Made by a program: the position numbers and the translations under genes. Shown one piece after another: positions 2,565-38,773 of a stretch of 38,773 nucleotides of DNA. This stretch comes from a virus. The DNA lies in IMG/VR virus record IMGVR_UViG_3300043425_000638, positions 1-38,773 of that record, one strand, 5' to 3'. Below the pieces are notes generated by a model that saw only the letters and a program-made list of their open reading frames with translations, was not told where the DNA came from and did no database searches. Each line of letters begins with the position of its first letter. The stretch's first letter is position 1.

Positions 2565-2613
2565 GGATAACAGTCAGTAAGCGAAATAAACTTCGCCTAC
2601 TTTTGTGTTATGG
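2565..2613 (-). repeat. attC-like site A
   Basis: Begins 6 bases after the stop of the 75-aa gene. Minus strand: CCATAAC, then arm AGTAGGCGAA, a five-base loop, arm TTCGCTTACT (one G.T pair), then GTTATCC. Terminal AAC..GTT boxes around an imperfect stem directly behind a stop codon are the layout of integron attC sites. The boxes are not perfect RYYYAAC/GTTRRRY. The 21 bases 2590-2610 recur at 37986-38006 in the other allele. Confidence 0.5.
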
Positions 2614-2619
2614 TTCATG

Positions 2620-2847
2620 CTAAAACCACGGTTCAGCATCGTAGGTTTCAGTACATTTTACAACCCTAAATTTAATTTCAGGCGTTATTTTCTTTTCTGC
2701 TTCGGCAAGTGCTTTGGCTTTTTTACGCTCAAGGAATTTATGATAGTATTCCTTTTCTTCTTCATCGTAGGTGTGATAAACGATTTCAGGTGCTTCTCCT
2801 TCTTTTTGAGCCTGTACATAATAATGTGTAAATGATTGTTTTGCCAT
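2620..2847 (-). CDS. Cassette-like hypothetical protein, 75 aa
   Basis: A short, charged protein with HTYDEEEKEYYHKFLERKKAKALAEAEKK in the middle (written here only as landmark: a long helix of E and K) and a conserved-looking end, YDAEPWF. Unrecognised. It lies between two attC-like sites, with attC-like site B ending 42 bases before its start and site A beginning 6 bases after its stop, so gene plus site A forms one candidate gene cassette of about 325 bp. Small unknown proteins are typical cassette cargo. Confidence 0.65.
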   Translation of the reverse strand: MAKQSFTHYYVQAQKEGEAPEIVYHTYDEEEKEYYHKFLERKKAKALAEAEKKITPEIKFRVVKCTETYDAEPWF

Positions 2848-2889
2848 TGTTTTTATTTTTAAATATTAGTTACTTAACAAAGCACGAAA

Positions 2890-3020
2890 CCATAACAAGC
2901 GGTATAAAACAAAGCGGTTTCAGTGCTATTTTTGGGCTTTGTCTCCCGTTCAATTTTCGGTGGGGGCTGACAGTTTATCGCTCGCAATCCGCTTCGATTT
3001 CATACCGCCAGCCGTTAGGC
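2890..3020 (-). repeat. attC-like site B (131 bases, VCR-like)
   Basis: The clearest of the four. Minus strand: GCCTAAC, an exact RYYYAAC box, begins 6 bases after a stop codon and the site ends in GTTATGG. Inside, GCGGTAT pairs with ATACCGC and AAGCGG pairs with CCGCTT, with an unpaired stretch between them, then a large apex. Length and the TAACAAGCGG ... GTTAGGC ends (plus strand) resemble the long attC repeats of chromosomal integrons. A gene-free stretch apart from this. Confidence 0.65.
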
Positions 3021-3026
3021 GTAATG

Positions 3027-3281
3027 CTAAGAAAGCCCAACAAGTTTTCTACGACCTTCAATATCACAAGTGGTTATTACCTTTGCTTCAAGTTTGTAAT
3101 GTGAACGCAAATCACGTTTCAAATCAGAAACAGTGCCTTGTACATCTGATTTAACCACTTTCCCATCACAAACGTATAAGTAATCCCAATAAACAGGGTA
3201 ATCGTTTTCCAATTCAGTTTCGTTAAGCACTACGCCTAACATCGGTTTGGCAAAATTGCCGTTTTGTTCTTCTTTTGACAT
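3027..3281 (-). CDS. Cassette-like hypothetical protein, 84 aa
   Basis: Unrecognised soluble protein, no membrane segment. It contains LENDYPVYWDYLYVCDGKVVKSDVQ-type strands followed by a helix (SDLKRDLRSHY) and a basic end. The stop at 3027-3029 is followed after 6 bases by attC-like site B, and attC-like site C precedes it, so the gene with site B makes a candidate cassette of about 436 bp. It has no counterpart in the other allele. Confidence 0.65.
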   Translation of the reverse strand: MSKEEQNGNFAKPMLGVVLNETELENDYPVYWDYLYVCDGKVVKSDVQGTVSDLKRDLRSHYKLEAKVITTCDIEGRRKLVGLS

Positions 3282-3326
3282 TTCATCTAAATTTTAAAGT
3301 TTGTACTACTATTGAAGTTTTGTGTT

Positions 3327-3358
3327 CGGCAACTTCTCCAAGCCGAGAAACGTTGGCA
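3327..3358 (-). repeat. attC-like site C (short)
   Basis: Begins 4 bases after the stop of the 65-aa gene. Minus strand: TGCCAAC, two bases, arm TTCTC, loop GGCTTG, arm GAGAA, then GTTGCCG. CAAC pairs with GTTG. At 32 bases it is shorter than usual attC sites, so it may be a degenerate one, but its position and end boxes match the others. Confidence 0.45.
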
Positions 3359-3362
3359 GCAA

Positions 3363-3560
3363 TTAAGCCGACAACTCAGATAGTTTAACTTTTATCCAGT
3401 AAGGAACATCGTATTCAATGCCATCATTGACACATTGCGCTTCATCATCCCAATCCCAATTAGGATTTGCTATCCGACAAGTTCCATCTCCATATATATT
3501 TTCTATGTGGGTTTCTTTCCCATCATACTTTACTGTTTGACCTTCTTTAAAATTTTCCAT
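3363..3560 (-). CDS. Cassette-like hypothetical protein, 65 aa
   Basis: A small beta-rich protein: FKEGQTVKYDGKE, ENIYGDGTCRIANPNW, then DVPYWIKVKLSELSA. The pattern of a 'GxxVxYdGk.h.I..i.gdg.c.ia' strand set resembles small SH3-like barrels, but I cannot assign a family. It lies between attC-like sites D and C and with site C makes a candidate cassette of about 257 bp. Absent from the other allele. Confidence 0.65.
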   Translation of the reverse strand: MENFKEGQTVKYDGKETHIENIYGDGTCRIANPNWDWDDEAQCVNDGIEYDVPYWIKVKLSELSA

Positions 3561-3584
3561 ACTACGAATTTAAATATTAACTGC

Positions 3585-3639
3585 TGCCAACAGCACATTG
3601 GCGGCATTAAAACGACCGCCAATCTGCAAACCGTTATAA
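3585..3639 (-). repeat. attC-like site D
   Basis: Begins 6 bases after the stop of the methyltransferase gene. Minus strand: TTATAAC, spacer, TGCAGATTGGCGG, an 11-base loop, CCGCCAATGTGC, then GTTGGCA. TTGGCGG pairs with CCGCCAA and TGC with GCA, separated by two unpaired bases on each side, giving the bulged hairpin typical of attC sites. Confidence 0.6.
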
Positions 3640-3645
3640 GAAACA

Positions 3646-4398
3646 TTAAACGAGCTCTCCAAATAAACCGACATTCTCTATTTTTGAGTGATTATAAATA
3701 TTTAAGGCACTTTCAAAAATTGCCAATCCAATTTCAGGAGCGACACAATTATTCAATACCTTTTCTTTATTAATACCAGTATATTTAGACAAATCAAATC
3801 CTAAATTCTTATGGTTGTTAGTTCTTAATTCGGCTTGTATTTTACCGCCTAAATCAGATTTCTTACCATTCATCCTACCTATTTGCTTTTTAAATTTTAG
3901 CATTGGTATTTTGAAGTTTGCCCAGAAATAATGGCGACCGCTTATTTGTGGTGCAATTAGTGGGGTATAATATGATTTTACATTCTCAATAATATACTTG
4001 CCTTTAAAGAAAGTTTGCAACAAAATTATTTCTTGATACAATGCCATATCAGGATAGCGTTTTATTCCTTGTGCATTTAAAAAATGATTTGTTACTGAAT
4101 GAGTAGGACAAGGTGGCGAACACCATATAAAATCAAAGTTTTCATAATTCTCTAAAAGATATTGATGTGCGTCTGCAACTATTACAATATCATTTGGATA
4201 TAAGTCTTGATAAACCTTTGCTATATTTTCGTCATACTCAATAGCGGTAACTTGCATATTTGGTGCATTCCATAATTTACGATTACCACCTATACCAGCG
4301 TAACAATTTAGAACCCTAAACAAGGGCTGCTTATAACAGGGTATTGCCAAAAGTGTGGCATTTGTGCTATTCTGAACATTTGTATTTCTATTTGACAT
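3646..4398 (-). CDS. C5-cytosine-specific DNA methyltransferase
   Basis: A 250-aa cytosine C5 methyltransferase. Motif I is FRVLNCYAGIGGNR (about residues 27-40), which binds S-adenosylmethionine. Motif IV is FIWCSPPCPTHS (about 89-100) with the catalytic PPC cysteine. Motif VI is IIENVKSYY (ENV), motif VIII is GRHYFWANF, and motif X is near NNCVAPEIGLAIFESAL. All key motifs are present although the protein is shorter than the usual 300-400 residues, mainly in the target-recognition part. No partner nuclease is nearby, so it is probably an orphan enzyme that protects phage DNA from host restriction. It carries attC-like site D right after its stop codon, so it looks like cassette cargo. Confidence 0.9.
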   Translation of the reverse strand: MSNRNTNVQNSTNATLLAIPCYKQPLFRVLNCYAGIGGNRKLWNAPNMQVTAIEYDENIAKVYQDLYPNDIVIVADAHQYLLENYENFDFIWCSPPCPTHSVTNHFLNAQGIKRYPDMALYQEIILLQTFFKGKYIIENVKSYYTPLIAPQISGRHYFWANFKIPMLKFKKQIGRMNGKKSDLGGKIQAELRTNNHKNLGFDLSKYTGINKEKVLNNCVAPEIGLAIFESALNIYNHSKIENVGLFGELV

Positions 4399-4457
4399 TT
4401 GTAATAATTTTGAGCTTTAGTAATTATATTTCCACACCTTCGACAATACCTAATCCG

Positions 4458-4670
4458 TTATAGCCTTTCTATTTCTTGTTTTACTTCTATGTAGTAATTA
4501 TAGATTTTATCTGTAGAATAAAAGGCTACCTTTAGAATTTCATCAACTGCAATTAATGCACATTCTTTGGCTGAATCAATATATTCTTCCCACCCTAATA
4601 CTTCATGAAACACTTTGGTATGAGGAATAAATTTATTTATTAACTCTTCTGCTTTTTCTTTTTGTGTCAT
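4458..4670 (-). CDS. Small KEKAEEL-type protein, 70 aa (paralogue A)
   Basis: Begins MTQKEKAEELINKFI and has AKECALIAVDEIL and a YYIEVKQEIERL end. The neighbour at 4667-4879 has the same three blocks, so they are tandem paralogues with a 4-base overlap. I know this kind of short helical protein from Bacteroidetes genomes and phages, without a function. The stop codon lies in CTATAACGG, which resembles the first box of attC-like site D, but no matching second half follows. Confidence 0.7.
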   Translation of the reverse strand: MTQKEKAEELINKFIPHTKVFHEVLGWEEYIDSAKECALIAVDEILKVAFYSTDKIYNYYIEVKQEIERL

Positions 4671-4879
4671 AATTTTTCTATTTCGTTTTTAACTTCTTTG
4701 TAATATTCTGTAAGTCCAATGAATCCATGAACTTTACTATAATTTATCAACTCATCTACTGTAATCAATGAACATTGTTTGGCAGTTGGGTATTCAATTC
4801 TTGAGTAATCTGACATTTTTTTGCTATTCAATCCAATAAAAGAATTAACTAACTTCTCTGCTTTTTCTTTTGCTGTCAT
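4667..4879 (-). CDS. Small KEKAEKL-type protein, 70 aa (paralogue B)
   Basis: Tandem paralogue of the gene at 4458-4670: MTAKEKAEKLVNSFI, AKQCSLITVDELI and YYKEVKNEIEKL. Mostly helical, soluble, function unknown. It is the first protein gene after the tRNA-like element at 4907-4992 in the left allele and is missing in the right allele. Confidence 0.7.
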   Translation of the reverse strand: MTAKEKAEKLVNSFIGLNSKKMSDYSRIEYPTAKQCSLITVDELINYSKVHGFIGLTEYYKEVKNEIEKL

Positions 4880-4906: not shown

Positions 4907-4992
4907 TGTGGGGGATTGGATTCGAACCAATGCAAGTCCCAACATTTTTACATGTTATTCCTACCACAGGTCAATTACGGGAAACGCCCCAC
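4907..4992 (-). tRNA. tRNA-like element, non-canonical fold, no reliable anticodon
   Basis: Minus strand: acceptor GTGGGGC/CCCCCAC (six of seven pairs) with discriminator A, and a perfect T arm ATTGG-TTCGAAT-CCAAT. The middle does not fold normally. The D arm TTCC/GGAA encloses an 18-base loop containing TGGTA, and the anticodon stem AACAT/ATGTT closes a 6-base loop (GTAAAA), or an 8-base one with the alternative pairing. GTA (Tyr) or TAA could be read, but neither satisfies the stem. No encoded CCA. It may be a degenerate tRNA or a tRNA-like structure. Confidence 0.5.
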
Positions 4993-5000
4993 AAATTATA

Positions 5001-5333
5001 TTAGTAAATTATTTTTCTATCTAACATCTGCCATACAAAAAGACAGTTATAATCTCTGATCTCCATCAGGCACTTGCCATACTTCTTGGAGTAGTAAGTG
5101 TGCAACATCCCCTGGTCTGCTTCGTTGTAAGCGACAACCATCAGTCTATACCAGGTAACATCATTGATGACCTTTCTTTCCAAGTAAACAGTGTCAATGA
5201 CATCTTTGTCATACTCGAACATTTGAGGGTTTCTAGTGCTCATAATTTGAACACAATACAATTTTTCGTTAGATTGGCCCATAAGGATAAGTGAGCCTAA
5301 TACAAGAAGTGCGGTTAAAATAATTGATCTCAT
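5001..5333 (-). CDS. Secreted protein of unknown function, 110 aa, left copy
   Basis: Starts at MRSIILTALLVLGSLILMGQ, a typical signal peptide with a hydrophobic core, so the protein should be exported to the periplasm. The mature part is beta-rich with paired aromatic and charged residues (TWYRLMVVAYNE, YSKKYGKCLMEI). No lipobox cysteine is evident at the cleavage site. A longer reading frame to 5468 exists, but it only translates the tRNA-like element upstream. The start at 5333 is preceded by the AACCA..ACCA leader. The copy at 38004-38336 is nearly identical, making this the conserved right border of the hypervariable locus. Confidence 0.8.
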   Translation of the reverse strand: MRSIILTALLVLGSLILMGQSNEKLYCVQIMSTRNPQMFEYDKDVIDTVYLERKVINDVTWYRLMVVAYNEADQGMLHTYYSKKYGKCLMEIRDYNCLFVWQMLDRKIIY

Positions 5334-5366
5334 AAAAATGGTTTTTAAATGGTTAAAAAATTTAGA

Positions 5367-5474
5367 TACCAGGATAGGATTCGAACCTATATGAATAATG
5401 TTACTTGACTTGGGATTGTCCTCCAGTAACTTCTCCTTATCCCTCTTAGCGTCTACCAATTCCGCCACCTGGTA
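5367..5474 (-). tRNA. Leu-type tRNA-like element with replaced anticodon region, left copy
   Basis: Minus strand: perfect acceptor TACCAGG/CCTGGTA, a Leu-like D arm (TGGCGGAATTGGTAGACGC) and a perfect T arm ATAGG-TTCGAAT-CCTAT. Between D arm and T arm lie 58 bases where a class II tRNA would have about 32. I find no proper five-pair anticodon stem with a seven-base loop there; GTTACT/AGTAAC and GGGAT/ATCCC can pair but do not form one. The second copy (38370-38482) keeps both ends but has an unrelated centre. The spurious MAELVDA peptide typical of translated tRNA-Leu genes is encoded here. Confidence 0.55.
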
Positions 5475-5481
5475 ATTTTGT

Positions 5482-5712
5482 TTAGTAATAATAGTGCAAG
5501 TAATATCTTATAGTCTCCTCAATCTTATCCATAAATTCTTTAAATTCAGCATTGCTAAAATTCGCATCGAAATTGGAAGCATCGTTGCCGTCAGCATCAG
5601 TTATGGTAAGATCGTCAGATAGGTAAGATTCTTTCAAGCCAGTTTGAGAGCAGTTAGGCTGATAGAAAAAAGAATTGATTTTGATGTTGTGGTTTTTGAA
5701 AGTGAATTCCAT
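5482..5712 (-). CDS. Hypothetical protein, 76 aa, left copy
   Basis: Unrecognised. Starts MEFTFKNHNIKINSFFYQ and ends in a helix, FKEFMDKIEETIRYYLHYYY, rich in tyrosine. The middle is acidic (DDLTITDADGNDASNFDANF). It is the first gene behind the promoter at 5763-5793 and its ATG is preceded by the AACCA..ACCA leader. The right copy at 38490-38720 differs by one residue or so. Confidence 0.75.
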   Translation of the reverse strand: MEFTFKNHNIKINSFFYQPNCSQTGLKESYLSDDLTITDADGNDASNFDANFSNAEFKEFMDKIEETIRYYLHYYY

Positions 5713-5762
5713 AATACTTGGTTTTTGGTTGTGATAAAATATCTGATCGTCATTGATAGTAT

Positions 5763-5793
5763 CAAAGATAAAACCCTTTTTGTATTTATCAAA
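5763..5793 (-). promoter_or_regulatory. Bacteroidetes-type promoter for the accessory region
   Basis: Minus strand: TTTG (plus 5790-5793), a spacer of 19 bases, then TATCTTTG (plus 5763-5770). This is an exact match to the TTTG / TAnnTTTG form of Bacteroidetes primary promoters at optimal spacing. It lies 50 bases before the start at 5712 and would drive the 76-aa gene, tRNA-like element, secreted protein and the variable locus. The right copy of this region ends at the window edge just inside the -7 box. Confidence 0.75.
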
Positions 5794-6489: not shown

Positions 6490-9351
6490 TTAGAATGTCG
6501 CATTCGTGATAATACTCTCTCTGTCGCTTCTACCTTGTCTTACATCGTAATCAGTAGAGGATGTATAAACCACTTGTAATCTGTCTATCCTATTGTTCGC
6601 ACTCATTACAGCATCCTGCAACATCTGTGTTTGCATCATTCCCTCACTTACCATAGCATTGGAAGATTGTATCAAAGTAGTGGGAGCACCTACCATTCCA
6701 CCATTGGCGAAACCTGGTATTCTTGCTTTCTTTAGTGTCTGGTAACCTATCCTATTTTGTTGTGATTGGTTTAATACTACCTCTCCAGTCTTTAATGTCG
6801 CAAGTACATTGTCTCCGTTCGACAGTGGCTTTATATTGCCTCTGCTCGTTACCTTTCCACCACCTGCGAATTGAACTATATCTGTGCCTGGCTTTCCTAC
6901 CACACCACCAGTAGCCAAAGGTTGTGCCGCAATCATTGCCGTTTGAATGGCTCCAGCAATACCTGCCGCAATCATAGCAGGGACATTGGCAGGAGGAGGC
7001 AAAGTATTGGCAGATGAAATCGCAAGGGCCGTATTGATAATTGAATCGATAATGGCAAGTGCTTTCTTTTGTACTTTGGCTTCTTTCTCCAACTTCTCTT
7101 TTTCCTTTGCTAACTTCTTTTGTGATGCCAATTCCTGATCAATCTGTTGTTGTATATACTGTGCTTGTAATCCAGTAGAGTTTTGTAATTCCTCTTCCAA
7201 CATTGACTGTCTTTCTGTTGACTTTTGTAAGTCCTCATCAAACTTTTGCATCTGTGCTTGGTTAGCACTGTCTATAAACGAACCAATGGCCTCAAGACCC
7301 ATCTTTGTATAGGCTCCGACTTGTTGTATCGTTTTGTTTAGTGCTTCCGCTTGTTTTTGAGCATCGATAATCACCTGGTCAGTAGTTGCCTTTGAAGCAT
7401 CCCTCTTTTTCTGTTCCGCATTCGCAAAATTAGTGGCCTCTTCTGTCTTTAATGCCACCAATCTGTTCTTTAGGACTTCCTGCTCTTGTTGTGTAAGTTG
7501 TGTATTGTTCTTTAGTTGGTTTTCAATGAGTTCCTGCTCATCTTTTAACCTATTTTGTGTGATGTAATACTGGTCTTGTGCCAATTTCTTGTCCAGTTCC
7601 AATATTTTAGCAGCATCTTCCTTCTTATTCGCATCGAGTAAGGCTCTTTCCTGCTGATATTGCAGTTGTTTTTGCATCAGTAAAGCATCCGCTGTCGCTT
7701 TCTCCAATGACATTTGGTCCTCAAAGGCCTTAATTTGCATTTCTTTCTCCTTTTGGAGTTGGTCTTTCTTGACTTGCTCCAATTCTTTAGCCGTTTGTTT
7801 GGCTCTCTCTACCTTATATGCCTCAATTTGTTCAGCAGTTTGCTTCTCTTCTGTCTCTACTTTTGTTCTTACCTTTTGTGCTTCTTTGGATGTCGCTCCA
7901 TATAACTTTTCTGCCTCTTTAATTCGCTCCTGGTTAACTTTCTTTTGTTCTGCTAACCCATCATTCAATGCCTTAATATCTGCCTCCTCTGACTTCTGGG
8001 CAATTATTCTCCTCTTTTCGTATTCATTGGCAATAAGGTCCGTTGTAATCTTATTTGTCTGTTGAATAATGTCAGCATTTTTCTTGATGGCTTCTTGTTG
8101 GAACTTAGCCTCGTCTTCTTGAAACTTTTTACGCTCCTTTTGAATCTCTTCATTTTGTTTTCTTTGCTCATCTGCTGCTGTCTTGGCTGCTGCCTTTTCC
8201 GCATTGATTGCCTCTATTCTTTGACCTTGAAGTTCTCTGGTCTTATTTAGATTTTCTGTCTGTAAGTTTATTAATTCTGCTTCTGCTTCTGCTATTGCTT
8301 GTTTTTGTTCTTTAGTTCTTTGACCAACAGAAGTTTCATCTTTTAATACCTTTAATCTTCTTTTTGCTATGTCCTCATTTCTTTTTAGTATTTCAGTTTC
8401 TTTGGCAATTGCTTGATCTAAAAACCCTAATCTTTCTTGATTAGTAAACTTGTCTTTCTGTGCTACCTTATTTCTTAATTCTGCTATTTCCTGATTATCT
8501 TTCGCATTCTTGATTAGATTCTTTCTTGCTGTTTTATCAATGGCATCTTGTTCTTTTGCTAACTGTTGTGCTAATCTTATCTCTTTGTTTAGTTCAGCAT
8601 TAACACCGAATAAGGCTTCACTCACATATTGGATAGCACCACCAATGGCTTCAACACCTTTAATGATAACACCACCAATTACAGCAACAGCATCCTGGAT
8701 GTTTTTAAATATAGTATTAAATACCATACCAAATTGTCTCAAAGAATTCTGTCCCTCCTCACTTGAAGTAAAAAACGCTTTTACTGAACCAACAATTAAT
8801 TCAAATGCTGCAATGACTAAACCAATAGGCCCTAACATTGTTTTGAATGCTGTACCTATTCCTTGAACACCTGATATTATTTTACCTGATATACCTCCAA
8901 ACCCACCAAGTGCCTCTGATGCTTCTTGTATCTTATTCGAATAATCCCCAACACTTCTTTGATATTGACCGACTGACCCATCGATACCTTTCAATTGTTT
9001 GTCCAGTTCTTGAATCTGTGCCAATAGTTTTTTCCCCTCTTCCGTATTCGCCTGATTACTTACTGCCAAGTCCTTGTAATCCTTTCTTAACTTGTTCAGT
9101 TTAGCACTCAAAGCATCGTAAGGCCTAATGGCTCCAGTTGTCTCTAAAAAGGATTTGTTTACATCGTCTTGTGCTTTCTTAACTGCTTTCTGTTCCGCTA
9201 CTAACTTACCTAACTTATCACTCAATTCTGCTCTCTCAAGGGCAGATTCCGCATCTTCAAAGGCTTTCTTTGTCTCTTTAATCTCAGCGTTTAATTGTGC
9301 TATAGATTTGATTCCCTCAATGTTTATACTAAAACCTAAAACTTGTGCCAT
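6490..9351 (-). CDS. Tail tape measure protein
   Basis: A 953-aa protein of the kind that sets tail length. The N-terminal 130 residues are coiled coil. A glycine-rich hydrophobic segment follows (about residues 145-250, with GPIGLVIAAFELIVGS and VIGGVIIKGVEAIGG), the membrane-like part used when the tip inserts. Then comes a very long K/E/Q/A coiled coil to about residue 740, a second hydrophobic alanine-rich segment (PPANVPAMIAAGIAGAI) and a C-terminal domain with GGVVGKPGTDIVQFAGGGKV and SNGDNVLATLKTGEVVLN, typical of tape measure ends. For a siphovirus it predicts a tail of the order of 140 nm by the usual 1.5 Angstrom per residue rule. It is unusually the last tail gene, after the large tail proteins. 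Confidence 0.85.
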   Translation of the reverse strand: MAQVLGFSINIEGIKSIAQLNAEIKETKKAFEDAESALERAELSDKLGKLVAEQKAVKKAQDDVNKSFLETTGAIRPYDALSAKLNKLRKDYKDLAVSNQANTEEGKKLLAQIQELDKQLKGIDGSVGQYQRSVGDYSNKIQEASEALGGFGGISGKIISGVQGIGTAFKTMLGPIGLVIAAFELIVGSVKAFFTSSEEGQNSLRQFGMVFNTIFKNIQDAVAVIGGVIIKGVEAIGGAIQYVSEALFGVNAELNKEIRLAQQLAKEQDAIDKTARKNLIKNAKDNQEIAELRNKVAQKDKFTNQERLGFLDQAIAKETEILKRNEDIAKRRLKVLKDETSVGQRTKEQKQAIAEAEAELINLQTENLNKTRELQGQRIEAINAEKAAAKTAADEQRKQNEEIQKERKKFQEDEAKFQQEAIKKNADIIQQTNKITTDLIANEYEKRRIIAQKSEEADIKALNDGLAEQKKVNQERIKEAEKLYGATSKEAQKVRTKVETEEKQTAEQIEAYKVERAKQTAKELEQVKKDQLQKEKEMQIKAFEDQMSLEKATADALLMQKQLQYQQERALLDANKKEDAAKILELDKKLAQDQYYITQNRLKDEQELIENQLKNNTQLTQQEQEVLKNRLVALKTEEATNFANAEQKKRDASKATTDQVIIDAQKQAEALNKTIQQVGAYTKMGLEAIGSFIDSANQAQMQKFDEDLQKSTERQSMLEEELQNSTGLQAQYIQQQIDQELASQKKLAKEKEKLEKEAKVQKKALAIIDSIINTALAISSANTLPPPANVPAMIAAGIAGAIQTAMIAAQPLATGGVVGKPGTDIVQFAGGGKVTSRGNIKPLSNGDNVLATLKTGEVVLNQSQQNRIGYQTLKKARIPGFANGGMVGAPTTLIQSSNAMVSEGMMQTQMLQDAVMSANNRIDRLQVVYTSSTDYDVRQGRSDRESIITNATF

Positions 9352-16929: not shown

Positions 16930-19329
16930 TTATCCAAATGCTAAAACACCCTTTTCCCCATCGACCAAATCTCTCACTACATATCTAAGAGCATCCATAC
17001 TGTGATCATCTATCTCTACCACTTCATTGGAGAAATTCCCATCTTTATCCTCTTTGTAACGATAAGAGCCTATCTCTCTAATCACATTGTGAGAATTTCG
17101 TGTAATATACAATTCAAATTCTAATATTTTAAGGATTCCGTAATAAATAGAATTGGGACCTTTTGTACTTGGCTTAACATTAAATATCTTACGCAGTTCT
17201 GCTATTATCTCTGGCCGTGCATTGTCAGCAATTATGCGTGTATTTTTAGAAACATTCAATCGTATCATTTCGGATTTAATCGTCTCACTTGTCAGATTGG
17301 ATTTGTACAGCATCTCGTTTACGTATAACTTCTTATTGGCCTTGTCCATTTTAACGTATAGTAAGACAGTCGGATCGTTATATCCAAAGTCCATTCCGTA
17401 GCCATCCAATCCTTTCACCTGGTTAAAGTCTTCCAGTGATATGCTGTTCCATTTAGAGAAGACTAATCCACCTTCAAATGGTTTTGGGTCTTGTTGGTAT
17501 AGTGCTTGGAAGGCTCTCGGATTTGCCACCTTAATCTCCATTAATCGCTTTAACGAATGCTTACTCTCCCATAGTGCTTCTCCTGGTTCCCTCACATCGT
17601 GTATACTTGTCGCTCCCTCACATATAGCAGGAAGTGATAAGATTGTCCAGGACTTATCGTGATTCATTCGTGATAATATCCGACCGCTCAAGTCATCGAG
17701 ATTCCACCTGGTCTGTGTTACTATAATTTGTGAGTCATTATGTAACCTTGTCATAAACACTTGTGTGAACCAATCCCAAACCCTACTTCGATAGGTTATC
17801 GATTCTGCTTCGATAGCATCTTTAACTGGATCATCAATGATACCAATGTCGGCAGGAGTTCCAGTAAGTGAGCCACCAACACCAATGGACTTGTAAAACC
17901 CTCTGTGCTCTACTATTTCAAACATATCAGAGTTTCTCAAGTAACTACCTTTGGCAGATGTCCTTACATTAGATCCATTTAGTGTTGTCTCTGGGAAGAT
18001 TTGTTGATACAATTCATCGTCAATAATCCTTTGTACATCTCGATTGAATGATGTCGCCAAGTCAGAAGAGTAAGAGCAACCGATAATCTTTAGTTTGGGA
18101 TTGCGGCCCAATAGATAAGCAGGTAAACGCCTGGATGTAAGTTCACTGTTGTGAGTAGGGATAAGGTCATATCCTGCTAAATACATACTATCTTCAACTT
18201 GGATGCAATTGCCTTGTACGTATTCGTTTTCATCTATAATAGATTTGATAAATAGTTTGTACTTATCATTTCTATCCCCTCGTATTTTGTTATTTAGCCT
18301 ATCTTGTTTGCGTTGTAAATTAAATATGTGTTCTCCTTTATTTGGATTAAATCCTATCCTGCATTTTTTGCCAACCAATTTTCCATTAATAAAAGCATCA
18401 TAATATTTTATCCTGCATTTAATCCCTAAAGAACGTATTAAAACATATACATCTTTTACTAATTGATTGTCTTTTTGAGAGAATTCACAATTGCCTTCTT
18501 TGTCGACACATCCATCTGTATCCATTAATCCTCTAAGCAATTCTAATCTTTGCTCTTTTGAACTTAGAAGATAATCTATTGGAATATGTTTGTTTTTGTA
18601 TAAATTATTTGCCCTTAATTTAGTAGTCAATCCATCAATTAATACTCTGTAAATCCCTTTTTTAACTTCTCTTGCTTCTCCTAATTTACTAAAGTGTTCT
18701 ATATCTTCTTGGCCAACTGTTAAAACGCCTTGTCTGGAATGGCCATCTCCAAGCCAACAACCTAAAATGTAAGGTTCAATCTCAAGTTCTTTTTTTTCTG
18801 TATCTAAACAAGGCGAAACATCTATGTAAGGTAATCTTCTATGTTTTTTGTTGAATATATCTTTTGTCTCGCATATTAATTCTCTCCTTCCTTTACGATC
18901 ATCATATTCAACTTTTATATTCCAAAGATGTTCATTCGCACATTTAATGGTTTTACCATCTTGAAATGTCATATTAACTACTTTCCATTTATATGATCCA
19001 GAATTAGCAATAACCTTCTTTGGTTTCCCATCTTGACCATATACAAAGTCACCAGGTATTAAGTCACCGTGATTAACCCATCCTTTTGTTGTAAGGATAG
19101 GAGTATCTATTGGCAAAAGTTTTCCGTGCTGTGGTGGCATAAACACCATTAACTTCTTTATCTTACCTTCTGCGAATTGCTGAAGATAGTCCATAAGAAG
19201 ATCGTGGTGCCAGTTGATTTCGTAGTCAGGCTTTGTGTATTGAACAAAGTCCCTGAAGTCATCACTCGCTAATTTCGCCTTTATTTCTTGTTGCTTTTGT
19301 AATAAGAGCATCCATTGCTCTGAGTTCAT
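16930..19329 (-). CDS. Large terminase subunit (ATPase and nuclease) with an in-frame intein
   Basis: A 799-residue frame in which residues 71-394 are an intein, leaving a 475-residue terminase, the usual size. The extein Walker A is MPPQHGK-S, split between K70 and S395. Walker B is IGIIDDP (D499, D500), and the coupling motif TQTRW follows near 538-542. The RNase H-like nuclease has D647 (GMDFGYND), D702 (IIADNARPE) and D775/D780 (DHSMDAL). The enzyme pumps DNA into the capsid and cuts it; the intein must splice out to restore ATP binding. It overlaps the small subunit gene by 68 bases. Confidence 0.93.
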   Translation of the reverse strand: MNSEQWMLLLQKQQEIKAKLASDDFRDFVQYTKPDYEINWHHDLLMDYLQQFAEGKIKKLMVFMPPQHGKLLPIDTPILTTKGWVNHGDLIPGDFVYGQDGKPKKVIANSGSYKWKVVNMTFQDGKTIKCANEHLWNIKVEYDDRKGRRELICETKDIFNKKHRRLPYIDVSPCLDTEKKELEIEPYILGCWLGDGHSRQGVLTVGQEDIEHFSKLGEAREVKKGIYRVLIDGLTTKLRANNLYKNKHIPIDYLLSSKEQRLELLRGLMDTDGCVDKEGNCEFSQKDNQLVKDVYVLIRSLGIKCRIKYYDAFINGKLVGKKCRIGFNPNKGEHIFNLQRKQDRLNNKIRGDRNDKYKLFIKSIIDENEYVQGNCIQVEDSMYLAGYDLIPTHNSELTSRRLPAYLLGRNPKLKIIGCSYSSDLATSFNRDVQRIIDDELYQQIFPETTLNGSNVRTSAKGSYLRNSDMFEIVEHRGFYKSIGVGGSLTGTPADIGIIDDPVKDAIEAESITYRSRVWDWFTQVFMTRLHNDSQIIVTQTRWNLDDLSGRILSRMNHDKSWTILSLPAICEGATSIHDVREPGEALWESKHSLKRLMEIKVANPRAFQALYQQDPKPFEGGLVFSKWNSISLEDFNQVKGLDGYGMDFGYNDPTVLLYVKMDKANKKLYVNEMLYKSNLTSETIKSEMIRLNVSKNTRIIADNARPEIIAELRKIFNVKPSTKGPNSIYYGILKILEFELYITRNSHNVIREIGSYRYKEDKDGNFSNEVVEIDDHSMDALRYVVRDLVDGEKGVLAFG
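18148..19119 (-). mobile_element. Class 3-like intein with LAGLIDADG homing endonuclease, in the terminase Walker A
   Basis: Codes 324 residues (L71 to N394 of the precursor). Block A is LPIDTPILTTKGW but the first residue is Leu, not Cys, Ser or Ala. Block B is CANEHLWNI, with W136 two residues after the block B histidine. Block F is GNCIQVEDSMYL with C375, and the end is LIPTHN followed by Ser, with T392. W, C and T at these places with no N-terminal nucleophile is the signature of class 3 inteins. The endonuclease part has ILGCWLGDGH (about 188-197) and LLRGLMDTDGCVDKEG (about 264-279), both LAGLIDADG helices with their acidic residues, so homing may be active. Confidence 0.9.
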
Positions 19330-22888: not shown

Positions 22889-23539
22889 TTAAGCATCTAT
22901 ATCTTCGGCATATTTACATCCGAATAATATTAAAATATGTGACTGTCTTTCTACTAAATAGTGATAGAATTCCTTACATCTTTCCGCTAAGAATTCAATG
23001 TCTTGTTCGTTTCTTAATACTACCTGCTCTGTGTAGTTTAGTGGCTCTGGGTAACGTGGATCAAAAGATATGAACGTACATTTCTTGGCTCCAGTAATCC
23101 ACATATACCCTTGCATCTGCCACCAATATTCCTGGACGTATTCGTTTGTCGGTTCTGATATTGGGTCAAAGGAGAAATCCGTTAAGTTCTTTAAATGGTT
23201 TGTCGGATTGTATGGACATTTGACCTCGATAATATGTTCATCGTTTACAATGCCATCTGGTCTACCTTTGATATAGGGAATAAGTGCGTGGTGTATACTT
23301 CTTTCAGGAGTAAGGACTGTCTCGAAGTTTTTACATTCAAACTTTTGTATGGCATATGGCTCATATTCGATACCGTGCTGAAGTGCCCATACTTTAAGTT
23401 GCTCCTTCTCTACTCCTAAAGATTGCATTATAATTTCGTCAGCATATTCCAATGCAGTTTTGTTAAATGGATGCTGTTTCCCCTTGCCTATAATTTTAGC
23501 GAAGTTAGAGGGTGTGATGTACATTTGGTGTAGTTCCAT
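22889..23539 (-). CDS. YqaJ-type viral exonuclease (PD-(D/E)XK)
   Basis: A 216-aa lambda-exonuclease-like enzyme. Near residues 55-70, LQHGIEYEPYAIQKFE gives the conserved acidic residues after the first helix. YIKGRPDGIVNDEHIIEVKCPYN (about residues 90-112) holds the PD and E-x-K catalytic motif, and YWWQMQGYMWITGAK is the conserved Q-containing helix. It degrades one strand of duplex DNA from the end and makes the 3' overhang for the ERF annealing protein at 27778-28356, together a Red-like pair. Both lie in the same early unit. Confidence 0.9.
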   Translation of the reverse strand: MELHQMYITPSNFAKIIGKGKQHPFNKTALEYADEIIMQSLGVEKEQLKVWALQHGIEYEPYAIQKFECKNFETVLTPERSIHHALIPYIKGRPDGIVNDEHIIEVKCPYNPTNHLKNLTDFSFDPISEPTNEYVQEYWWQMQGYMWITGAKKCTFISFDPRYPEPLNYTEQVVLRNEQDIEFLAERCKEFYHYLVERQSHILILFGCKYAEDIDA

Positions 23540-24120: not shown

Positions 24121-24600
24121 TTAAACAATTTTTAAATTTAATAAGGCTAATTTAAAAGCATCTCTTTTATCCTGCTCTGCCTTTAGTCCTTTGTAATTTA
24201 TGACCAGGTACTTTTCCTGGTCCATTATGGCTTGTGCTGTTTTGTGGTCCCATTTAGAACCTTTTGCCAAAGGAGAGATTTCTTTCACTTTGTAGTTTCC
24301 TGCTTTTAGTGTATCGACTACTATTTGTGATATGGCCTGGTTCATTCCGACATTGCGTGATTTTCTTGCCACTACTAACTTAGAGCCAGTAGTATCAAAG
24401 GAGGCTTTTTGCAGGTTAGAATTTTCAACACAAATAAATAATTCTTGTCTTGGGTATGCGTGATGTAAAAAATTGGCAAAGTTTAAAAAGTCTTTGAAGT
24501 CTTTCATTATTTCAAATCTCACTTCCTTTTTTGTACATAATATTGTACAAACTGCAAATCCATTTTCTCTGAATGCAGGATCAATCCCTATAAGAATCAT
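24121..24600 (-). CDS. RuvC-like Holliday junction resolvase
   Basis: A 159-aa RNase H-fold protein starting MILIGIDPAFRENGFAV, the RuvC first strand with D8. A second acidic residue is in ELFICVENSNLQK, and the third in EQDKRDAFKLALL. I start at 24600, where the enzyme domain begins, not at the upstream ATG 24666, whose extra residues are low-complexity and overlap the previous gene heavily. It resolves branched DNA from recombination before packaging, alongside ERF and YqaJ. Confidence 0.8.
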   Translation of the reverse strand: MILIGIDPAFRENGFAVCTILCTKKEVRFEIMKDFKDFLNFANFLHHAYPRQELFICVENSNLQKASFDTTGSKLVVARKSRNVGMNQAISQIVVDTLKAGNYKVKEISPLAKGSKWDHKTAQAIMDQEKYLVINYKGLKAEQDKRDAFKLALLNLKIV

Positions 24601-25039
24601 ATAAGTATAGTTTATGTTTAATGATGTAATTGTGTACGTGCTTCCAGTACCCTTTCTTTGAGCCATATCCTTTCAGTTGGTTACAAGTTGTAACCGATTG
24701 ATATCTTAATTGTGGGTAATGGTAAGATAGGAAGAGAGAGTGATCCAGGTAAGAATGCCAAACGGATTGATAAGACCTCCATTTTATATTGTTTCTGTCT
24801 ACAAAGTAAGTATTTGTAGTTTTCATTGGAGCACCTGGATAGTATTTGATAGCAAAATGATTATTGGAATGTATAGATATTCGACTTTTCCCTCCTCCAC
24901 TTTCGATTATTGCTTGTGCTAACTGTATCGAAGCAGGAATGCCAGTGATAGATTCCATTATTTTTGCTTTAAATATATTCTTTTCGATATAATTGTCACT
25001 TATAATAGACAAAATTAAGGTAAATAAGAGTAATTGCAT
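24581..25039 (-). CDS. GH73 beta-N-acetylglucosaminidase with N-terminal membrane anchor
   Basis: A 152-aa peptidoglycan hydrolase. The N-terminus MQLLLFTLILSIISDNY is a signal or signal-anchor sequence. The enzyme domain follows: MESITGIPASIQLAQAIIESGGGKS with the catalytic glutamate in AIIESG (about residue 45), HSNNHFAIKYY, WRSYQSVWHSYLDHSLFL and an end YGSKKGYWKHV. This is the glucosaminidase (lysozyme-like) fold that splits the glycan strand. Unusually it lies in the replication module, between a nuclease and the resolvase gene, apart from the amidase and the other lysis genes. Confidence 0.85.
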   Translation of the reverse strand: MQLLLFTLILSIISDNYIEKNIFKAKIMESITGIPASIQLAQAIIESGGGKSRISIHSNNHFAIKYYPGAPMKTTNTYFVDRNNIKWRSYQSVWHSYLDHSLFLSYHYPQLRYQSVTTCNQLKGYGSKKGYWKHVHNYIIKHKLYLYDSYRD

Positions 25040-27777: not shown

Positions 27778-28356
27778 TTAAATAAGGTTAGACAATTCTT
27801 GTTTCTGCTCTGATGTCAACTTGTACATCTTTATTGCTTCTGATATTCTTACCAATGGCTTCTCCTTTACCCAGTTTAATACCTTTTCCCACTTGTCTTC
27901 TGGGACCTCCTTTTGATATGTCAATTGTTCCTTTTGGATTGGAGCACCAATAGCATCCGTGTCAGTATCGACATTGATACATAGAATAGCAGAAAGGCTG
28001 TATCTCTTTGCGTAAGTTATCCCACCACCCATATCCTGAAGAGCATTGGTTCCCTTGTTACCGGACATCGGAGAGAATGGCATCATACTCGTTCTGAATT
28101 CTCCACTTGTGTGATAAATTGTAGTGGAAAGGAAATCTCCAGTCATATCCTGGCAGATCACAAGACCGCACTCGATAAGCATTGGTCTGATGGTAGTCAA
28201 TAGATTGTCCAATGTAACATACCCATTTTTCAAGTGAGCATTTTTCCCATCTTTTTTAAGACTGGCGTTTTGGAATAACCCTTGAAATTTTACAAGGGCC
28301 TTAACCAGTTCTGTGATTGTTTCACTTTGGATTAGATGTTCATTTACGTTTTTCAT
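27778..28356 (-). CDS. ERF-family single-strand annealing protein
   Basis: A 192-aa recombinase of the ERF family. The N-terminal half has ELVKALVKFQGLFQNASLKKDG, then NGYVTLDNLLTTIRPMLIECGLVICQD. The C-terminal core has TNALQDMGGGITYAKRYSLSAILCINVDTDTDA, the conserved 'D.q..g...TY..RY.l...l.i..d.D.D' segment of ERF. It anneals complementary single strands and pairs with the YqaJ exonuclease (22889-23539) as a Red-like system for recombination and circularisation. Its start follows the AACCA..ACCA leader. Second gene behind the strong promoter. Confidence 0.9.
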   Translation of the reverse strand: MKNVNEHLIQSETITELVKALVKFQGLFQNASLKKDGKNAHLKNGYVTLDNLLTTIRPMLIECGLVICQDMTGDFLSTTIYHTSGEFRTSMMPFSPMSGNKGTNALQDMGGGITYAKRYSLSAILCINVDTDTDAIGAPIQKEQLTYQKEVPEDKWEKVLNWVKEKPLVRISEAIKMYKLTSEQKQELSNLI

Positions 28357-35149: not shown

Positions 35150-36475
35150 TTAGCGTTTAAGAATTTGCTTCATTACGAATTGTCCAGCAGCGTGGATTTG
35201 TTCGTGTTGAAGTGATTTTACTTTTGGAGAGTTGTTTTCAACTTTACCGCTTACAGTCTTTGCTAAAGCGTTAGCCATAACTTCCTCCTTTTCTTTGGTC
35301 ATACCTTCGATTTGTTCAGTCATAGCCCCCATTTTGGTTTCTAATTCTGCTAATCTTTTGGTAAGTTCCTCGATCATTTTGTCTTTCTCCTCAACGACTT
35401 TGTCCATATCGTCAAGTTCTTCGTTTTTCTTTTCCTCTCCTAAAGAAATTTCCTTTTCGATTTCAATCTCTTCTGCTCTTACAGAAAGACCTAATGCTAA
35501 GGCTATCTTTTCAACGAGTGATTTGTTTTCGTTCATAAGTTTCACTTTTTTTGGAATGTTTTTAAATTTATTAATAGAGTCAGGTCTTAATGAAGCGAAA
35601 GCCAAAGTTTCCAATTTCTTGTCTTTAGGCTGCTCTTCAATATAACCATCAATAAAGCCATAGTTGTAAGCCTCTTGTGCTGTCATCCAGGTTTCTGCTG
35701 TCATCATTTCAGATACCATTTTTTTAGTCTTTTTAATATCTCCATCGACTAACTTACCTGAATTCTTGATCTTAGCGACATAGATGTTTAACATCTGCTC
35801 GTCGACCTTCTCATATAGGTCAATCATTTTTTGCATCTCTTCCTTATTCCCCATAGACATTCCCCAACAGTTGTGGATCATAAAGAATCCATTCTTACTC
35901 ATAAGAGATTTGTCGGCTGCTAACATTACAACAGTAGCAATGGAGGCCACAATGCCAATACCTTTGGCAGTAACTTCGCCAGGATAAGACGAAATAAGGT
36001 CCGCCATAGACAAACCTTCGAATACATCGCCACCCTCACTTGAAATGTTTAATACTACTGGTTGCCCTGATGCCTCCAGTAAAGCACTATTAATAGCATC
36101 TCGTGTATTAGCACTTGATGGCTCAATTACTCCTAATATATTTGCTTCAATCATTGCGTTAGGATTTTGGTTATCTATTTGTTTCAACTTTCTTATGGCC
36201 CATTCAATACCTTCAGTACCACCCCAAGCATCCCAAGCCAAACCACCACATCCTTCGCTATACGGAACATCTTTGTGCTGTTGGTGTCTCTTAAAAGATG
36301 CCATCCTGGAGATCGTTTCTCTTGAAATAGGCTCTCTCTTTGCTAATTGATTGGCTCTTTGTTTGCCAGTTGCCTCAAGACAAGTTCCCCATCCATTCTC
36401 TTCCGCCCAGTTAAGTGCTCTTTGTGCGTTCTCAGATGCTGCTTTAGGATAGTCTGTATAGGATTGTTCTGCCAT
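35150..36475 (-). CDS. Prohead protease (ClpP type) with XkdF-like N-terminus and scaffold-like tail
   Basis: A 441-aa protein. Residues 1-100 match the small N-terminal domain of many prohead proteases: RALNWAEENGWGTCLEATGKQRANQLAKREPISRETISRMASFKRH, CGGLAWDAWGG. Residues 108-280 are a ClpP/S14 protease: VVLNISSEGGDVFEG, catalytic S178 in IVASIATVVMLA and H201 in FFMIHNCWG, then AETWMTAQEAYNYGFIDG. After residue 310 comes a long acidic coiled coil (VVEEKDKMIEELTKRLAELETKM) that probably acts as scaffold and is cleaved off during maturation. A single gene thus supplies protease and scaffold. Followed downstream by decoration and capsid genes. Confidence 0.9.
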   Translation of the reverse strand: MAEQSYTDYPKAASENAQRALNWAEENGWGTCLEATGKQRANQLAKREPISRETISRMASFKRHQQHKDVPYSEGCGGLAWDAWGGTEGIEWAIRKLKQIDNQNPNAMIEANILGVIEPSSANTRDAINSALLEASGQPVVLNISSEGGDVFEGLSMADLISSYPGEVTAKGIGIVASIATVVMLAADKSLMSKNGFFMIHNCWGMSMGNKEEMQKMIDLYEKVDEQMLNIYVAKIKNSGKLVDGDIKKTKKMVSEMMTAETWMTAQEAYNYGFIDGYIEEQPKDKKLETLAFASLRPDSINKFKNIPKKVKLMNENKSLVEKIALALGLSVRAEEIEIEKEISLGEEKKNEELDDMDKVVEEKDKMIEELTKRLAELETKMGAMTEQIEGMTKEKEEVMANALAKTVSGKVENNSPKVKSLQHEQIHAAGQFVMKQILKR

Positions 36476-36546
36476 AAGATTATTTGGCAGTAAAATTATG
36501 TTACAAAATGTTTAAAAAGTTATGATTGTTTTGTAATAAGATAAAA

Positions 36547-36573
36547 CAAAAAACCCCTACCGAATGGTAGAGG
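36547..36573 (-). terminator. Rho-independent terminator, right copy
   Basis: The same hairpin as at 1098-1124: CCTCTACC-loop-GGTAGGGG followed by TTTTTT on the minus strand. The gap before it is shorter than in the left copy by about 70 bases, the stretch with the possible weak promoter being absent. Confidence 0.8.
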
Positions 36574-36616
36574 TCCCTAATCTAAATTACTAACGTATAA
36601 AAAACTAATGAAAATC

Positions 36617-36832
36617 TCAAATGATAGGTCTTATATCGTCATCAAGTTCTAATTTTATGACTCTAAAGTCTTTAATCTTATCAAAGTAATCGTCAGCAGC
36701 ATCGATAACAATATCACTATTTCCTTCTAATGTTTCAAGTGCTTTTTGATACCCTTCAATGTAGGCTCTGACAACAATAATTTTTAAATCATTGTCAAAC
36801 TTGTCTAAATTCTTAATAACTGTTTTTAACAT
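36617..36832 (-). CDS. Small conserved protein of unknown function, 71 aa, right copy
   Basis: Second allele of the gene at 1168-1383, with the same AACCA..ACCA leader before ATG 36832. Among differences is DDYFDKIKDF against DEYFDKIQDF. The rest is unchanged, so purifying selection is likely. Function unknown. Confidence 0.7.
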   Translation of the reverse strand: MLKTVIKNLDKFDNDLKIIVVRAYIEGYQKALETLEGNSDIVIDAADDYFDKIKDFRVIKLELDDDIRPII

Positions 36833-36875
36833 AATAGTGGTTTTTGGTTTGTGATATAAAAATAGTAAATATTTG

Positions 36876-37262
36876 TTACAATTCAATACTACATAGATTT
36901 AATTTCAATAGCCTATGGATTAAACTGGTAGTTAGTTCTGCATAGGTTATCATTTCCTCCTCTTTGCTTATGTCGTAGTTGTACTTCCAAAATGCCAAGT
37001 GCATTGCCTCGTGGAAAATAAGAGTAATATCCTTGTGTCCGTTTCCAAGTCTTTTGGAATTGATAAAGAGATACATTTTGTTTTCACTATTTGGGATCAC
37101 GTTGCACATCCCTGCAATGAAAGCACTGTACTTTGTATCTGTTTTCTTTTCGCAATCCTTCCTGGACAAACCGTGTAATTTATTTGCATTAAAGTAATTG
37201 AACAAATCAATGGAATCGTCACCGAGTAAGAATAGGAAGTCTGTAAACTGATGTGAAATCAT
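36876..37262 (-). CDS. Small HEAMH-motif protein, putative zinc metallopeptidase, right copy
   Basis: 128 aa, second allele of 1427-1813. HEAMH and the downstream acidic residues are kept; differences (for example NVIPNSENKMYLFIN against NEIPNSDNKMYIFVN) lie outside the motif. Constraint on the motif supports a real zinc site. It marks the left border of the hypervariable locus in this allele. Confidence 0.75.
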   Translation of the reverse strand: MISHQFTDFLFLLGDDSIDLFNYFNANKLHGLSRKDCEKKTDTKYSAFIAGMCNVIPNSENKMYLFINSKRLGNGHKDITLIFHEAMHLAFWKYNYDISKEEEMITYAELTTSLIHRLLKLNLCSIEL

Positions 37263-37288
37263 AAATTAAAATAGTTTTGATTGGTTAA

Positions 37289-37822
37289 TTATTCTAATAC
37301 AATACAAGGAGATGGAGAATTTGGAAAATTTGCAGAAGCGGGAGGCATATGATTAGCACGATTTTGAATTAAAGAATTCAATTTTTTATTATGACTAAAT
37401 ATATCAAATTCTGAATCAAAAGAAATATGTGTTTTTATAGTAACTTTTCCTTCTTCACACCATTTTCTAATATGAGAAGATGTAATATTATTTCTTTCTA
37501 TTAATAGCAACATTAACATATGTTCATCTTGATTACAATCGTATAAATCCATCATTTTATTATGAACAAAATCTAAATTATTATGTAACCATTTTTTATC
37601 TATTTCAATTTGTTTTTTTCTTCTATCAAATGCTTCTTTAACTAAACCACTTTTATTGTTAGAAAATGAAACATCGTGAGCAAGTCCGTGACATTCTACA
37701 CAAATATTAATAAGATTACTTTCATCATCACTTCCGCCTCTTGATTTCGGCACTATATGGTGACTTTCAAGATAATCTGTTTTTTTTCTACATATTTTAC
37801 ATTCTAAGTTTCCAGATTCCAT
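37289..37822 (-). CDS. HNH endonuclease, 177 aa, right allele only
   Basis: A classic zinc-bound HNH domain at the N-terminus: CKICRK (C8, C11), LESHHIVPKSRGGSDDESNLINICVECHGLAHD with H21/H22, N39, C41 and C44, H45. The remaining 120 residues are helical and lack a recognised domain; it ends in an unusual SANFPNSPSPCIVLE. The gene is clearly more AT-rich than its neighbours, which suggests recent acquisition. It is likely a free-standing homing endonuclease that fills the locus occupied by cassettes in the left allele. Confidence 0.9.
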   Translation of the reverse strand: MESGNLECKICRKKTDYLESHHIVPKSRGGSDDESNLINICVECHGLAHDVSFSNNKSGLVKEAFDRRKKQIEIDKKWLHNNLDFVHNKMMDLYDCNQDEHMLMLLLIERNNITSSHIRKWCEEGKVTIKTHISFDSEFDIFSHNKKLNSLIQNRANHMPPASANFPNSPSPCIVLE

Positions 37823-37992: not shown

Positions 37993-38006
37993 CTACTTTT
38001 GTGTTA
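37986..38006 (-). repeat. Half attC-like site, 21 bases shared with attC-like site A
   Basis: ACTTCGCCTACTTTTGTGTTA (21 bases, plus) is identical to 2590-2610, the R''/L'' half of attC-like site A. Here it follows the stop of the secreted-protein gene, with TTAAC overlapping the stop, and no matching second half is found. It marks a break between alleles. Confidence 0.55.
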
Positions 38007-38336
38007 ATAAACTATTTTTCTATCTAATACCTGCCACACAAACAGACAGTTGTAATCTCTGATCTCCATTAGGCACTTGCCGTATTTCTTTGAGTAGTAT
38101 GTATGGAGCATTCCTTGATCAGCCTCATTATAAGCGACAACCATTAGTCGATACCAGGTAACATCATTGATGACTTTACGCTCAAGGTATACAGTGTCAA
38201 TGACATCTTTGTCATACTCGAACATTTGAGGGTTTCTCGTGCTCATAATTTGAACACAATACAATTTTTCGTTAGATTGGCCCATAAGGATAAGTGAGCC
38301 TAATACAAGAAGTGCGGTTAAAATAATTGATCTCAT
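38004..38336 (-). CDS. Secreted protein of unknown function, 110 aa, right copy
   Basis: Second allele of 5001-5333 with the same signal peptide MRSIILTALLVLGSLI. Differences at the end (VWQVLDRKIVY against VWQMLDRKIIY). Its start at 38336 follows the same leader. The frame open to 38438 is the tRNA-like element. Its stop codon overlaps the attC-like half site. Confidence 0.8.
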   Translation of the reverse strand: MRSIILTALLVLGSLILMGQSNEKLYCVQIMSTRNPQMFEYDKDVIDTVYLERKVINDVTWYRLMVVAYNEADQGMLHTYYSKKYGKCLMEIRDYNCLFVWQVLDRKIVY

Positions 38337-38369
38337 AAAAATGGTTTTTAAATGGTTAAAAAATTTAGA

Positions 38370-38482
38370 TACCAGGATAGGATTCGAACCTATATGACCC
38401 TTCACATTTCTGTTGCATCGGTCTTTCTTATGGGACAAACGTACACCATCTTACTTAGCGTCTACCATTCCGCCACCTGGTA
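38370..38482 (-). tRNA. Leu-type tRNA-like element with replaced anticodon region, right copy
   Basis: Ends are identical to the left copy: acceptor TACCAGG/CCTGGTA, D arm TGGCGGAATGGTAGACGC (one T fewer in the loop) and T arm ATAGG-TTCGAAT-CCTAT. The central part (64 bases between the shared GACGC and ATAGG) is unrelated to the left copy and contains no obvious anticodon stem-loop. So both alleles keep the amino-acid arm but not the decoding part. Confidence 0.55.
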
Positions 38483-38489
38483 ATTTTGT

Positions 38490-38720: not shown

Positions 38721-38773
38721 AATACTTGGTTTTTGGTTGTGATAAAATATCTGATCGTCATTGATAGTATCAA

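Follow-up and report, generated by a model that had tools for sequence, protein, structure and literature searches.

The window, i.e., the whole stretch of 38,773 nucleotides that was analysed (IMG/VR record IMGVR_UViG_3300043425_000638), is a virus contig with terminase, portal and head protease genes. It very probably contains a CALIN of a Bacteroidota-type integron, with inverted cassettes whose genes can take their 5′ ends from the attC loop and which would be moved by a host Xer/IntI-like recombinase acting in trans. The identity of the attC sites, the cassette units, the insertion point, the inversion, the conserved start position and the array-adjacent integrase of the bacteria are read from sequence.

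Detection of attC-type sites and cassettes

On the minus strand, from 4459 to 2569, AAC/GTT-bounded hairpins were found to alternate with three small genes and a C5-cytosine methyltransferase gene, making up five attC-type sites with four cassettes between them (Table 1). For detection, the covariance model R1 was built from 20 long hairpins, including two of the window, and R2 from 141 bacterial chromosomal sites, with phage sequence absent; the models are partly dependent, as the training sites of R2 were collected using R1, and the E-values of both are rough. At E ≤ 5, R2 gave exactly five hits on the 38.8 kb window, all on the minus strand, and nothing else. An earlier note on this DNA had described such hairpins after each short gene and had read them as integron-type attC sites with mobile cassettes in a phage genome; R2 detects the hairpins, and the mobility is borne out by cassette differences between related phages (L003, L005, L006) and the window. 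The earlier note counted four sites, missing the one at 4335–4459, and its extent for the third site needs correction, since this site runs to 3238, into the 3027–3281 ORF.

Table 1. Sites, cassettes and flanking gene of the window array (window coordinates)
Feature	Position	Strand	Description
attC-type site 0	4335–4459	-	R″ CTATAAC, R′ GTTATAA; overlaps the start of the methyltransferase ORF
Cassette 1	3634–4457 (824 bp)	-	Site 0 hairpin and C5-cytosine DNA methyltransferase gene (ORF 3646–4398)
attC-type site A	3589–3635	-	R″ TTATAAC, R′ GTTGGCA; short-loop class
Cassette 2	3353–3633 (281 bp)	-	Site A hairpin and 65-aa ORF 3363–3560 with its own start codon
attC-type site C	3238–3354	-	R″ TGCCAAC, R′ GTTAGGC; ATG 3281 lies 41 nt upstream of GTT
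Cassette 3	3015–3352 (338 bp)	-	Site C hairpin and ORF 3027–3281
attC-type site B	2894–3016	-	R″ GCCTAAC, R′ GTTATGG; R2 hit 2883–3027, E = 2e-12
Cassette 4	2608–3014 (407 bp)	-	Site B hairpin and 75-aa ORF 2620–2847 with its own start codon
Site D, resident attC-type	2569–2609	-	R′ GTTATCC; R2 hit 2558–2620, E = 0.006
Phage gene phrog_21441	4458–4670	-	Stop codon directly adjoins the insertion point (..AGGCTATAA↓C; arrow, join)

Site 0 was hit by R2 at 4324–4470 (E = 5e-16) and by R1 with E = 1.3e-25, and its stem on the coding strand is 19 bp long. The ORF of cassette 1 matched PF00145 (E = 9e-8), and homology to the relatives L009–L012 ends at 4338 and ~3630. Site A (R2 hit 3578–3646, E = 1e-6) has a 94% near-copy in phage L017 at 4473–4522, and site C was hit at 3227–3365 (E = 2e-18).

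Complementarity of R′ and R″ inside one unit is a mark of integron cassettes. Within each window unit, the first bases 3′ of GTT complement the last bases 5′ of AAC, with one complementary pair per unit: GTTATAA/TTATAAC, GTTGGCAGC/GCTGCCAAC, GTTAGGCGTAgTGC/GCATTACGCCTAAC and, with a 1-nt offset, GTTATGGTTtcGTGC/GCATgAACCATAAC. The complementarity amounts to 13/14 in cassettes 2 and 3, and in cassette 4 R′ GTTATGGTTTCGTGC is complementary to R″ GCATGAACCATAAC with one 1-nt offset.

In related phages, R2 revealed 70 sites in 16 virus records, which are metagenomic. In 2.1 Mb of fetched loci, a unit finder demanding R′/R″ complementarity returned 33 units, as opposed to zero in codon-shuffled controls (one per locus). 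Nearly all units have 12–13/14 complementary positions. An Rfam scan gave no match at gathering thresholds. The window hairpins are real attC-type recombination sites, far beyond chance.

Unit boundaries and sister phages

The evidence for recombination is entirely comparative and comes first from sister phages, which are close relatives of the window phage in IMG/VR. At the same locus, L003 has no cassette, L006 has one, L005 has a different one and the window has four. The gene flank (phrog_21441) is common to L003, L004, L005 and L006, and the site D hairpin is identical in L003, L005 and L006, where 0 or 1 cassettes are present. In L003, the conserved gene end ..GAAATAGAAAGGCTATAA↓C runs directly into site D. 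The test for separable cassettes in related phages, which the earlier note had proposed, thus returned different cassettes at one locus (L005, L006), or none (L003).

Joining was always at TATAA↓C, on the side of site D that faces the stop codon (L003, L005, L006 and the window), and the unit therefore consists of a hairpin followed by a gene. Its limits are the AA↓C boxes beside the stop codons, so that each hairpin belongs with the gene 3′ of it. Homology breakpoints fell at AAC in 24 cases vs 5 at GTT in phages and in 20 vs 0 in chromosomes, with a chance expectation of <1, and exchanges occur at these 3-nt boxes between otherwise dissimilar neighbours. The earlier note had expected breaks at the GTT boxes; in the frame of the genes they lie at AAC. 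Between some related methyltransferase blocks, the hairpins on both flanks differ; hence, hairpins evolve fast or are sometimes swapped. A scheme of hairpins and gene blocks as independent movers, in which the methyltransferase block keeps its ends while the hairpins vary, was rejected, as the breakpoint tally favours the hairpin plus the following gene.

Several other features of the locus and the contig were noted. Tandem phrog_21441 paralogues (4458–4670 and 4667–4879) lie directly upstream of the array, and an apparent member of this family is found as cassette cargo between attC sites in phage L166 (5341–5547). The contig ends are diverged duplicates (1–1836 with 35520–37288, 94%; 5001–5765 with 38004–38773, 91%); the assembly went full circle and continued into a second strain, which is represented by these ends and has at the array locus an HNH gene (37289–37822) and a 26-bp remnant of site D. 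The stretches 5368–5476 and 38379–38480 are tRNA-Leu-like, with acceptor and T arm intact and with interiors that differ between the two strains; a tRNA-Leu-like sequence with an extra D-arm hairpin is present in L005 (~8745–8850), and ARAGORN called no tRNA on the tRNA-Leu-like stretches. Another tRNA-like stretch was seen at 4907–4990. The terminase large subunit (16930–19329, 799 aa) has what looks like an intein in its Walker A region (GK..HNS), judged by eye and from split PHROG matches. An Erf annealing protein (27778–28356), a RecE/YqaJ-like exonuclease (22889–23539) and a possible RuvC-like protein (24121–24666; by eye) make up a phage recombination set.

Inverted orientation of phage cassettes

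The earlier note had each gene followed by its own attC. Phage cassettes were found to be inverted relative to bacterial arrays, with the hairpin preceding the gene. Taking the hairpin's own asymmetry as the frame of orientation, genes at 149 chromosomal sites lay on the opposite strand in 126 cases, on the same strand in 4 and were unclear in 19, whereas genes at 76 viral sites, which were taken independently of cargo from a scan with an attC L-stem motif enriched in phages, lay on the same strand in 69 cases, on the opposite strand in 2 and were unclear in 5 (Fisher p = 3e-46). The canonical layout, in which a gene is followed by its own attC, accounts for only 2 of 71 scorable phage sites vs 126 of 130 chromosomal ones. 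Across the phylum, the L-stem motif gave 13 hits in 395 genomes, mostly on the opposite strand where scorable.

As breakpoints lie at the same box in phages and chromosomes, recombination keeps its polarity and it is the gene that is flipped. The better-folding attC strand, which is the equivalent of the bottom strand used by IntI, was also the same in both groups (226/267 viral and 207/229 chromosomal sites). Selection on RNA as the cause of this strand preference was set aside, since the same folding asymmetry is found in chromosomal arrays, with that strand antisense to their genes.

Phages might have sampled the inverted cassettes from a bacterial lineage with inverted chromosomal integrons, and a few same-orientation units do occur in MAG contigs (L037, L056, L108). 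This origin is unlikely, however, given that the scorable chromosomal sites in Flavobacteriaceae are canonical with four exceptions and that L108 (G001:C46) is itself phage, with terminase, primase and helicase genes. The latter contig, also represented as L287, is binned in a Flavobacterium MAG and carries same-strand cassettes; the remaining arrays of that bin (G001) are mostly canonical, subject to binning error.

Predicted start codon in the attC loop

Two of the four window genes were found to begin inside a hairpin, a feature the earlier note did not mention: the methyltransferase gene, whose ATG (4398) lies in the loop of site 0, 61 nt ahead of GTT, and ORF 3027–3281, with its ATG at −41. 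The other two window genes use their own starts. The leader of site C, MSKEEQNGNFAKPM↓L, agrees with a phage-wide class of 41-nt leaders. A loop ATG opening an in-frame ORF across GTT into the cargo was present at 61 of 76 phage sites vs 6 of 149 chromosomal sites, with a loop-shuffle expectation of 35.5 (mean) and 41 (maximum) for the 76 phage sites. The ATG was located at −41 from GTT in 36 sites and at −42 in 13. One L′ arm was found to be read in three frames, yielding the leaders ..NGNFAKPM↓L, ..QFCQTD↓V and ..ILPNPC↓Y, with the ATG shifting to match. A single leader may be joined to different cargo, and a single cargo to different leaders.

Alternatively, these could be canonical attC cassettes that are inverted because phages recombine the other attC strand, with no special class involved and with accidental loop starts. 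The stems are nearly symmetric and loop shuffling alone already yields about half of the in-frame starts that are possible; yet we consider this explanation very improbable, because the breakpoint polarity in the attC frame is equal in phages and chromosomes, the starts exceed the shuffled number and are fixed at 41–42 nt, and the leaders NGNFAKPM, QFCQTD and LPNPC are kept in three frames.

Chromosomal arrays of Bacteroidota and their candidate recombinase

In the Flavobacterium MAG L055 (G001), 45 R1 sites were detected. Within the family of G001 (inferred to be Flavobacteriaceae), 197 of 249 genomes had a site hit at E ≤ 1e-6, and within its phylum (inferred to be Bacteroidota) R2 sites were present in 77 of 148 sampled genomes. 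Among 25 genomes titled as other groups, sites were found in one, a Sulfurimonas MAG. Its contigs (G714:C109 and C112) hold seven sites with E-values down to 2e-24, reflecting either mis-binning or transfer beyond Bacteroidota. The chromosomal stretches are solid arrays, exemplified by >20 consecutive cassettes in 20 kb of L146.

A PF00589 recombinase was located at an array's end in all of the seven genomes checked. Array integrases are encoded, for example, at L142:1557–2687 and L154:8622–9794. One ~100 kb chromosomal array (G229:C1, ~2064000–2158400) has no adjoining tyrosine recombinase; a second array of G229 has one. The IS91-linked recombinases of G004 and G010 were left out of account, as they are not linked to an array, and a placement of the chromosomal integrase at the 3′ end of the array was discarded, as the gene strands showed canonical orientation. 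An attI-like GTT 3′ of the integrase stop codon pairs with R″ of the first cassette at 12–13/14 positions in 6 of 8 loci; in the remaining loci, pairing was 10/14 in one and none in L148. On the host side, an integrase gene hence adjoins attI and array, as in a complete integron. The integrase was found in 48 of 60 genomes of the G001 family, and in 53 genomes assessed for co-occurrence it accompanied sites in 40, with integrase only in 4, sites only in 4 and neither in 5 (p = 0.004).

The array integrases (alignment A4) scored 189–239 bits with NF040815 and 175–211 bits, in two pieces, with TIGR02249 (cut-off 265). They have 63–64 residues from G.KDR to H.LRHS vs 105 in IntI1, for which the reference sequence was confirmed at 100%. 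Known IntI require the IntI-specific insertion; the array integrases are without this additional domain and therefore fall outside the standard IntI definition. Compared with the PDB, they align with XerA/XerC-like proteins in one piece and with IntI4 (2a3v) in two. Most of them have in A4 an extra N-terminal domain of ~70–90 residues with a W-S motif before the SAM-like domain; Pfam gave no match to this part (residues 1 to ~90). The recombinase of Bacteroidota-type arrays is a candidate Xer/IntI-like integrase, with predicted recombination activity.

Proposed mechanism

Neither integrase nor attI had been seen in the phage by the earlier note, in agreement with our finding that the window record has no PF00589 tyrosine recombinase and hence no integrase in cis. 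The same holds for 39 of 46 array-bearing virus records, and with the phage lacking such an enzyme, a host enzyme presumably acts in trans. We propose that a host Xer/IntI-like tyrosine recombinase would insert and remove cassettes at attC on the folded strand, at the G↓TT step (AA↓C in the direction of the phage genes). Site D would be the resident attC of the phage, oriented against phage transcription; upon infection, the host array integrase would act on single-stranded phage DNA, with circular cassettes entering and leaving at site D. Because attC fixes the orientation in which a cassette enters, only cassettes with genes inverted relative to attC would be expressible in the phage. The long attC loop would serve as the 5′ end of the gene, providing an A/T-rich leader and a start codon and adding ~14 residues N-terminally. 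What we infer from this comparison is that the host enzyme acts in trans, that recombination is single-stranded, that translation begins in the loop, and why selection would favour the inversion.

A rival in which these hairpins serve as RNA elements or terminators, with the genes of a variable locus reshuffled by homologous or Erf-mediated recombination, is hardly credible: the phage does encode Erf and a RecE/YqaJ-like exonuclease, and the hairpins, which are transcribed, do fold better as the coding strand, but exchanges sit at AAC boxes between unlike neighbours, each unit has R′ and R″ complementary across 14 nt, chromosomes show the same asymmetry with the strand antisense, and the same sites build integrase-adjacent arrays.

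Under the preferred reading, a Bacteroidota-type CALIN served by a host recombinase, the capture from a host integron suggested in the earlier note holds in part. Bacteroidota do have chromosomal integrons as a source; that a host array was simply copied is unsupported, because host genes are oppositely oriented and a methyltransferase scan of genome contigs revealed no close bacterial cassette (best identity, 61%). As no close counterpart of the window cassettes was found in bacteria, host–phage traffic is not directly evident. Taken jointly, it is likely that Bacteroidota own a widespread integron class with an integrase devoid of the IntI-specific domain, and that the inverted class of their phages uses attC as a translation-initiation and leader module, the frame being kept by shifts of the start codon and the cargo being pluggable into phage operons.

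Relation to known systems and significance

Sedentary chromosomal integrons have attC spacers of ~5/5. The Bacteroidota type is unlike these in having spacers of 5/1–3, an array integrase without the IntI-specific domain, and an extended, 14-nt R complementarity in which position 11 is a conserved G.T. With Vibrio superintegrons and Treponema integrons it has in common long single-orientation arrays of small genes, attC of ~120 nt and attI beside the integrase; as in the inverted-integrase integrons of Treponema, the integrase reads toward the array, and reverse orientation has been noted for Spirochaetota (PMC9668308).

Phage CALINs are already known, including that of Polaribacter phage P12002L, and IntI1 was found to recombine only the bottom strand of P12002L_attC2 (Qi et al. 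2023, PMC9892861). Like the window array, phage CALINs such as that of P12002L (L083) are integrase-less attC arrays with methyltransferase cargo, and the P12002L hairpins have the same spacing and length; none of its sites reached E = 0.01 with R1 or R2. Unlike here, the inverted orientation rule, the loop start with its leader and a dedicated Bacteroidota integrase were not described in that work (PMC9892861).

The loop start resembles ORF-11 and ORF-18 of attI1 in class 1 integrons (reviewed in PMC8876359) in that a start codon within a recombination site reads across the crossover and aids cassette translation. ORF-11, however, sits in attI and is a separate peptide acting by coupling, whereas every phage cassette of this kind has the loop start in its attC, joined in frame with the cargo.

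Inverted cassettes, and the wide occurrence of the Bacteroidota integron type, appear new. A literature search in open-licence papers returned no report of Bacteroidota arrays of this type, and the IntegronFinder 2 survey (PMC9024848) lists a single complete integron for Bacteroidetes, in the species Salinibacter ruber. Bacteroidota are regarded as poor in integrons; in this analysis, sites of this type occur in one half of the phylum's sampled genomes and in some four fifths of those of one family, and the candidate integrase falls outside current integron definitions. Phages of Bacteroidota hold a matching pool of inverted cassettes with methyltransferases and many unknown genes, which offers a testable route for the shuffling of accessory genes between phages and possibly hosts. 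It would be a new solution to cassette expression for an attC to provide its own gene with a start codon.
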